DNA from: Coprinus comatus | Lineage: Eukaryota; Basidiomycota; Agaricomycetes; Agaricales; Agaricaceae | Reading direction: 5' to 3' | Length of the DNA: 64,000 nt | NCBI GenBank assembly: GCA_034638255.1 | Contig: JAWPGT010000023.1 | Location: 310,001-374,000 of the forward strand | In this document: positions 42,498-44,283 of the stretch, piece after piece | Layout: each line of letters starts with the position of its first letter | How positions within the stretch are numbered: position 1 is the first letter of the stretch | Notes under the pieces: model-generated | Told to the model about the DNA's origin: nothing | Database searches by the model: none | Seen by the model: only the letters and a program-made list of their open reading frames with translations | Translations under genes and position numbers: made by a program

Positions 42498-44283
42498 CTA
42501 TCTCAATGCATTTAGGACTGCTGTGTATGCAGACTTGGGTTGGTAATTATTATTGAACAAGAGTGGCGAATCTCCAGAACGCCAGGAATTCTATTTCGAT
42601 AGGTCACTGTAAGCATTTTTTTCATGATTTTTTTGCTATATGAGTAAGAGACTCACGGCATCACTGACACCCCATACGGTGATGGAAACACAGTTTGGAG
42701 TTGACAAACAAGCATTGACGACAGTAGTATAGTCATTTGGTGAAGCTTGTTTGATATCCAATTCAGTGATAGCAACTTCAAGACCAGTTCCAGCAAGAGT
42801 ACTAAGAACAGCTCCAACACCACCAACACCACCAGCTTCTAAATGCATTTGAGTACCAACACCATCGATATGTTTACCCGAAGAGTTGATACGGCCTATG
42901 AGTCTAACCATTCCTTGTGTTTTGGCATTATTGGAATCAAGGTTATAATCGTTGATGTAGAGTTTGGCATTGGGATCAGCGGCACGAGCTGCTTGGAAGG
43001 CAATGGTGATGAAATTCTAACAAATGTAATATCCCAATATTAGACGCTGTTTGATGATGGAGTAGATAACTGACTTCTCCGAGAACATTAGTGAAGACGC
43101 TAGAGCGAAGAGAACCATCTTCATTTAAACATTCACTGGAGACCGAGATCAGTGCTGGGAAAATTGCATATGTGCATTTGATACTCACTTGACAACGTCC
43201 CACTGTTATGAATGGAAGCACGCGCTTAGTATATAATAAGGTAGAAAAGCTATATCTTGGCTTACAGCTGGAATGCAACACATGAGCATTGTTATCCACA
43301 AGAATCCCGAGCGCGTCACTCACCATAGAGCTTCCCAGCATAACGACCAGCTACGTTGGAAATGTGACTTTGAATCACGGAGGTCTACGAGGTTCAGTCA
43401 GACGCGGCGAGGTAGATACATTGTAGTTACGATGACTACGCACCAAGGTACCGGAGTCCCCAATAGATTGAACCCAAGAAGGGAGTTGAGAGTGCCAAAC
43501 TGTAGACTAAATGTCAACATATTTTAAATGCGAAATTGAAACAGCTTACCCAAGGTATGTCCACGAATGAGCTTGCCATTGGAAGTAGCCCAATTAACAA
43601 GGGTATCCGAGTTTCCAAAATTGAATTGTCCTCGGCTCGCTAAAATTGTTTGGCCAGTCAGTCAGTCAGTCAGTAAAGTTGCACAACAGAGCTGATAGCA
43701 GTGGATATTAGAGCCTTACGTTCAGTGGCATCCCACTAGATTTGATAGGAAAGCAGTGCTATTAGTATATAATAACACGAGAATCAAACATTTGGCAAAG
43801 TCACCTTCATTGAGTTTTCCTAGAGGTACACAAGTCTAAATTAGTCTGGGACACGCAAAAAGAATGGGTAGGATTTACCGGTGTTACACCACCGAAGTCA
43901 GACTTGAGGATCGCAACATTGGCTATAATAAGGGTTTTTTCATTTCTGAAAATATGAACTGATATCATAAGTGCTTACCAGCGATATTCAAAGTATTAGG
44001 ATCAGCAGCAGCTCCCTACAAGAAATTGAGTTAATTTGATTCTCCAGATAGCAGAATCTTAGACTTCAACTTACGAAAAACTTCTTGCCTTTGGCAGTGA
44101 AAGCTGCGTTAAGTCCACCTGATTGTCTTTCCGTGAGAGCTGGTAGAACAATCATAGTATTTCATCAGTCCCCCAAATTGTTCTTGATGATCAAACGTAC
44201 TTACACTTGTTGACAGGAGTAACAGCAGCGACTGCGTGTTGAGCAAAAAGTGCAATAGAAATGAGAGCTACAAAGTTCTGCAT
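42498..44283 (-). CDS. GH10 endo-1,4-beta-xylanase (copy 2), intact
   Basis: Cleaves internal beta-1,4 bonds of xylan outside the cell. The ATG at 44281-44283 gives signal [20 protein letters not shown]. Then [61 protein letters not shown], the acid/base motif [39 protein letters not shown], nucleophile ITELDI, and [11 protein letters not shown] continuing as [23 protein letters not shown] and a stop TAG at 42498-42500. No CBM1. About twelve introns and three micro-exons (15, 16 and 2 nt). The last exon needs the acceptor CGAAATAG, since the earlier TTACAG leads straight to a stop. Confidence 0.9.
43266..43267 (-). other. 2-nt micro-exon, GH10 copy 2
   Basis: Minus strand ...CATTCCAG|CT|GTAAGC.... 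The upstream exon ends KLY plus G and the next begins TGG GAC. The bases CT complete GCT (Ala), giving YAWDVVNE as in GH10 enzymes generally. A single intron removing all of it would shift the frame. Flanking introns are 56 nt (43268-43323) and 63 nt (43203-43265). Confidence 0.75.
43655..43674. repeat. (CAGT)x5 microsatellite
   Basis: Five perfect tetranucleotide units inside an intron of GH10 copy 2. Confidence 0.8.
43720..43735 (-). other. 16-nt micro-exon, GH10 copy 2
   Basis: Encodes WDATE plus one base, between CTAG acceptor and GTAAGG donor. Confidence 0.75.
43805..43819 (-). other. 15-nt micro-exon, GH10 copy 2
   Basis: Encodes ENSMK between CTCTAG acceptor and GTGACT donor. Confidence 0.75.

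Follow-up and report, generated by a model that had tools for sequence, protein, structure and literature searches.

A predicted two-nucleotide exon directly before the acid/base motif of a GH10 xylanase gene of Coprinus comatus, and its recurrence in the GH10 paralogues of the same genome

Among the closest described systems are the Fusarium CYP621A genes, for which the published study describes an RNA-supported exon of 1 nt, terms it the first in a fungal gene, finds the database transcripts wrong in all but one of those listed there, and cites exons of 2-5 bp for Arabidopsis, Drosophila and humans (Nelson and Syed 2026, PMC12940212). In plants, 1-nt exons occur in APC11 and VPS55, where they are conserved and were missed by annotation; the GTRAGT donor of VPS55 is conserved, use of the APC11 exon is constitutive, and VPS55 is alternatively spliced in some plants (PMC4674806, PMC8831610). 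Exons shorter than 3 nt are described in one of these papers as hard for both read mappers and gene finders (PMC8831610), and plant microexons of 1-15 nt have been catalogued (PMC12409088). The preliminary description of the present locus called a 2-nt exon close to the smallest possible, and rightly, since exons of 1 nt have been published (PMC12940212, PMC4674806).

The gene considered here is copy 2 of a pair of GH10 xylanase genes in a 64,000-nt window, by which we mean the whole stretch of Coprinus comatus DNA that was analysed. It resembles CYP621A in being fungal, in having an AG-N-GT-type core within a span of about two introns, in the conserved protein motif encoded at the site, and in the dependence of the reading frame on the exon (PMC12940212). 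The two differ in that the Fusarium exon is 1 nt long, is found in ascomycete P450 orthologues and is backed by RNA reads, whereas the exons predicted here are 2 nt long, lie in several paralogues of one genome at two positions, and are predicted from DNA sequence. Like those of APC11 and VPS55, they are ultra-short, long conserved and absent from annotation, but the plant exons measure 1 nt and were shown by constructs and RNA (PMC4674806, PMC8831610). The microexons of Phanerochaete P450 genes are longer, the shortest reported in that paper being 6 bp, against 2 nt in the GH10 genes (PMC1184071). We recognised no earlier account of a 2-nt exon in a GH10 gene in the literature searched, which comprised titles and the beginnings of abstracts and included few subscription journals. 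Ultra-short exons as such are known; the GH10 member, its spread through a gene family and the link to broken xylanase models appear to be new within that literature.

In the model of copy 2, the two bases CT are bordered on either side by a GT-AG intron (Table 1). The joins read AAG CTC TAT G-GTGAGT / CCAG-CT-GTAAGC / AACAG-TGG GAC GTT GTC AA, and with CT included the spliced sequence is TAT GCT TGG GAC GTT GTC AAT GAA, or Tyr-Ala-Trp-Asp-Val-Val-Asn-Glu. The coordinates and splice motifs of the preliminary description (43324/43267 and 43266/43202) are exact in the sequence, and its placement of the exon directly before the acid/base motif holds, CT and the following TGG GAC giving YAWDVVNE. 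Intron 9 contains a branch-point-like CTCAT whose A lies 15 nt before the intron end. Spliced copy 2 has both WDVVNE and ITELD, the acid/base and nucleophile motifs of GH10, respectively, and the Glu codon that follows the first base of exon 12 specifies the acid/base Glu. The GH10 profile PF00331 matches exon 13 at 133.9 bits against a cut-off of 22.1. Apart from the junction, copy 2 encodes what looks like an intact xylanase, with 74-80% identity to its five best homologues among the matches listed. A short tandem repeat of ACTG lies within intron 6 (window about 43655-43675).

Table 1. Features of the predicted gene models of GH10 copies 1 and 2, in window coordinates unless marked otherwise.
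Feature	Position	Strand	Description
GH10 xylanase copy 2	42498..44283	-	14 exons, 330 aa
Short exon, copy 2	43819-43805	-	15 nt
Short exon, copy 2	43735-43720	-	16 nt
Exon 9, copy 2	43324..43384	-	61 nt; ends GKLY + G, phase 1
Intron 9, copy 2	43268..43323	-	56 nt; GTGAGT...TTCCAG
Exon 10, copy 2 (predicted)	43266..43267	-	2 nt; CT, last two bases of Ala codon GCT
Intron 10, copy 2	43203..43265	-	63 nt; GTAAGC...AACAG
Exon 11, copy 2	43189..43202	-	14 nt; WDVV + AA of Asn
Exon 12, copy 2	43075..43135	-	starts T GAA: end of Asn, then Glu
PF00331 match	C23:352651-353019 (window 42651-43019)		in exon 13 of copy 2
Homologous 2-nt exon, copy 1 (predicted)	40670..40671	-	CC; Ser codon TCC
Introns flanking CC, copy 1	40737-40672; 40669-40605	-	66 nt; 65 nt

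A search of the genome itself (35.7 Mb in 134 contigs) yielded 28 pieces that match GH10, and 11 loci were modelled: copy 1, copy 2, their C18 twins, one C1 gene, four C6 genes and two C10 genes (C10a and C10b). These amount to nine distinct genes, the C18 twins being near-identical to the originals and that of copy 1 being cut by the contig end. Starting from an anchor about 20 nt upstream, we enumerated all GT-AG models that reach the TGG through one or two introns, each 40 nt or longer. For copy 2 a single enumerated model, the one with the 2-nt exon, reads in frame without a stop, and omission of CT gives YVGRCQ-stop, which bears out the earlier claim that retention of CT alone keeps the frame. 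In each of the 11 loci, a single enumerated model gives a protein as long as the homologues, again the one with a 2-nt exon; in-frame models with one intron exist in six of the 11, but alter the length of the protein. Spliced alignment to the Thermoascus xylanase 1gok (a solved structure), with introns set to 40-130 nt, no limit on exon length and the site not given, chose a 2-nt internal exon unprompted in both copy 2 and copy 1. When exons shorter than 3 nt were banned, the score fell by 56 units in copy 2, with loss of WDVVNE from the alignment, by 54 in copy 1, and by between 24 (C6_g1) and 76 units (C10b) in the other nine loci. The best alternatives in C1, C6_g1 and C6_g3 keep WDVCNE, with an insert or another change ahead of the motif; the one in C6_g1, at its cost of 24 units, uses an 11-nt exon and a GAG acceptor and inserts three residues. 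Enumeration and spliced alignment bear out the 2-nt exon CT, as do, independently, the paralogues and homologues described below, which we regard as confirmed at the level of sequence.

The preliminary description had presented the exon as a feature of a single gene; this stands for copy 2, but the feature is wider, as all nine distinct GH10 genes modelled have one such internal exon (11 of 11 loci), and no further internal exon shorter than 14 nt was called in them. Seven of the nine use the copy-2 position, with CT in six and CC in copy 1, and the two C10 genes have TT at a position 5 nt upstream. Among the seven, the 16- and 14-nt exons were modelled in every gene and the 15-nt exon in six. 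Protein identity among the nine genes is 39-94%, the C10 genes being distant (39-51% against the remaining genes and 54% between the pair). Given this distance and the shift in position, the two kinds of 2-nt exon may be separate in origin. A uniform slide of 5 nt between the two subfamilies is unsupported, the exon lengths placing the next intron at +2 nt and not at -5. A whole-genome scan with a pattern for the copy-2 arrangement returned copy 2 and its C18 twin only, the pattern being too specific.

Several of these loci have features of their own. In copy 1 (window 39.8-41.7 kb, minus strand) WDVVNE is replaced by WDVVHE and ITELD by ITELS, and the C-terminal motif is changed as well; its product could be inactive or could function differently. 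The end of C18 (L009 1-4275) holds a near-identical second version of the GH10 pair, corresponding to window 40497-45151, with aligned blocks of 99.86% and 99.07% identity and about 380 nt (window 42386-42005) absent; it could be an allele, a haplotig or a recent duplication. The C6 genes form a tandem of four with 91-94% protein identity (C6:437220-447069). The frame of C10b appears, by eye against C10a, to be disrupted distally (L012, C10:839000-844000), through either pseudogene formation or an assembly error, and its spliced alignment stops short of the disrupted part.

The introns around the 2-nt exons are identical between the C18 twins and the originals. In the non-duplicate genes, intron identity is 0-11 points above the mean of shuffled sequences, with the exception of the second introns of the C6 genes, where it is 63-75% and shuffling gives 57-60%. 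With the flanking introns this near to shuffled identity, the AG-NN-GT core has been kept against a largely randomised background. As a control for chance, each gene was dinucleotide-shuffled 4000 times (the copy-2 span being 121 nt): YAG-NN-GTRAG with flanks of at least 40 nt arose in 0.08% of the shuffles of copy 2 and in 0 to 0.55% across genes, and the loose AG-NN-GT in 10% and in 2 to 24%, respectively. The loose pattern in a single gene is of little weight; the argument depends on frame, uniqueness and recurrence. C10a, in which the 2-nt exon is followed by the donor GTCAGT and not by one of the form GTRAG, has the loose pattern only. Copy 2 combines an AG-N(1-3)-GT core between two complete introns with a need for its inclusion to obtain the frame and the homologous protein, at a position that is conserved in related genes despite the divergence of their introns.

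Two protein searches (E <=1e-30) returned 7746 and 6213 matches, of which the best 120 each were listed and all 240 examined. We set apart the jgi/lgn records on contigs of about 1.0-4.9 kb (21 in the first list, 10 in the C10-like list) as transcript-like, because such short contigs hold a whole frame that is broken by a dozen introns here; all other listed records (99 and 110) were counted as genome-type, a few contig-less ones of which may be cDNA. Among the matches listed, an indel at the site of the 2-nt exon was present in 47 of 99 genome-type models against none of 21 transcript-like ones in the first list, and in 52 of 110 against none of 10 in the C10-like list (Fisher tests 1e-5 and 0.005, descriptive because related sequences are non-independent). 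The genes behind the genome-type models with no indel at the site (52/99 and 58/110 among the matches listed) may either have the exon and be well annotated or lack it. Of eleven other junctions in the 99 listed genome-type models, nine had 0-3 indels, the variable N-terminal junction 1|2 had 46, and junction 11|12 had 19, with poor matching in 6 more of the 99; the 21 listed transcript-like records had 7 indels at 1|2, one at 12|13 and none at the remaining junctions. Six other junctions tested in the C10-like list had indels in 0 to 5 of 110 models.

Among the 47 broken models listed, eight read GK[LI]YAV[SR], one AVM, 24 Y-G followed by other residues and 14 something else, and two more models with YAVS (P0070, P0092) fall outside the indel window. 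Among the seven genes whose exon has the copy-2 position, retention of intron 10 would give KLYAVS in six and QSVS in copy 1, and retention of intron 9 KLYG in six, so that GK[LI]YAV[SR] is the reading expected from an unspliced donor after the 2-nt exon. The broken models often resemble translated splice sites of the kind that the 2-nt exon model predicts. In the C10-like list, 25 of the 110 genome-type matches listed lack, by eye, exactly two residues before WDV; such a loss keeps the frame, and a real variant is therefore possible as judged from protein models. The organism names on the records behind the models include Pleurotus, Armillaria, Panaeolus, Cyathus and Trametes, the best hits that carry a name being agarics, and many mushroom-forming fungi may have a 2-nt GH10 exon, to judge by their predicted proteins. 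Part of the breakage may be due to the 14-nt exon 11, given the indels at 11|12. Breakage from that exon alone is a weakened explanation, the junctions of the 15- and 16-nt exons having indels in 0 to 3 of 99 models among the matches listed. A scan of genome contigs confirmed at least 587 relatives, of which 80, with bacterial titles, were kept as intronless references; all 80 are gap-free at the site with Ala, a set selected partly by YAWDVVNE itself. A scan of viral contigs for relatives gave two loci at 33% identity, and no relatives of the window's own genome were found in the genome set searched. A possible but less probable course of events is that 2-nt exons arose on two independent occasions, 5 nt apart, at one sensitive site of two GH10 subfamilies, that both persist across Agaricomycetes as an unforgiving splice checkpoint for xylanase mRNAs, and that they have corrupted nearly half of the genome-derived models listed.

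Taken for copy 2 and its paralogues, the reading that we hold to be very probable is that of a constitutive 2-nt coding exon, recurring in the paralogues, whose flanking introns would each be intron-defined and removed separately, with restoration of the frame. Each intron would be recognised across itself by means of the donor, branch point and acceptor that it contains, and introns 9 and 10 would be removed one after the other, because an acceptor and the next donor 2 nt apart could hardly be occupied together. Joining of TATG, CT and TGG would restore the Ala codon and the frame of WDVVNE, the motif with the acid/base Glu; the main mRNA form expected is TATGCTTGGGAC, and a form contrary to the 2-nt exon model would be TATGTGGGAC. 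That splicing is necessarily intron-defined, as had been proposed, is a sound inference, both because a 2-nt exon leaves hardly any room for factors on its two splice sites at once and because both introns have a length usual in these genes (56 and 63 nt, against a median of 57.5 nt for 84 other modelled introns of the nine genes). Donors of the form GTRAG flank the 2-nt exons in 16 of 18 cases against 39 of 84 other donors, counts that are non-independent, the genes sharing descent, and that include a few alignment artefacts among the modelled introns; donors of this strength fit constitutive use. A branch-point-like YTNAY lies 8-45 nt before the end of all nine first introns and of five second introns, as a raw motif count, and was not found in that interval in the other four second introns. 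Skipping of the 2-nt exon, or retention of the first or of the second intron around it, leads to an early stop in all nine genes, so that strong purifying selection on the site would be expected, as would decay of mis-spliced RNA.

The same early stops would suit an exon that is real but alternatively spliced, with skipping as an off-switch that yields an mRNA stopping early and degraded: on skipping, the stop comes within a few codons in all nine genes, and a microexon switch is reported for a Trichoderma regulator of xylanases (PMC11121469). We think this improbable, as the site is free of indels in all 31 listed transcript-like records, although such records would under-represent degraded forms, and the strong donors on both sides fit constitutive use. 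The simplest splice would be one 121-nt intron (43323-43203), the gene then being a pseudogene or read with a frameshift, and two of the 84 other modelled introns do reach at least 110 nt. Such an intron ends copy 2 at YVGRCQ-stop within what is otherwise an intact xylanase (74-80% identity, as above) and stops all nine genes early; genes of 39-94% identity would all have to carry the defect at almost one position, eight of the nine having no other visible defect (C10b has one), and we give this explanation very little credence. A single non-canonical intron (GA-AG or GT-AC) that supplies the two bases and gives Tyr-Gly-Trp or Tyr-Glu-Trp works arithmetically, by eye, in copy 2, and some homologues do have Gly at this residue (P0063, P0101, P0102, P0116), but it is just as improbable, requiring non-canonical sites where canonical ones are present and leaving unexplained both the AG-NN-GT kept within diverged introns and the AV[SR] peptides.

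With the constitutive 2-nt exon as the preferred reading, exons near the physical size limit would extend to a family of many genes whose enzymes are used in industry, and the GH10 paralogues would form a comparison set for how the spliceosome copes with an acceptor and a donor that lie 2 nt from each other. Among the matches listed, about half of the genome-derived GH10 models from mushrooms have an indel at the active site. Such errors, the cause of which would be predictable, would compromise cloning, structure prediction and phylogeny.
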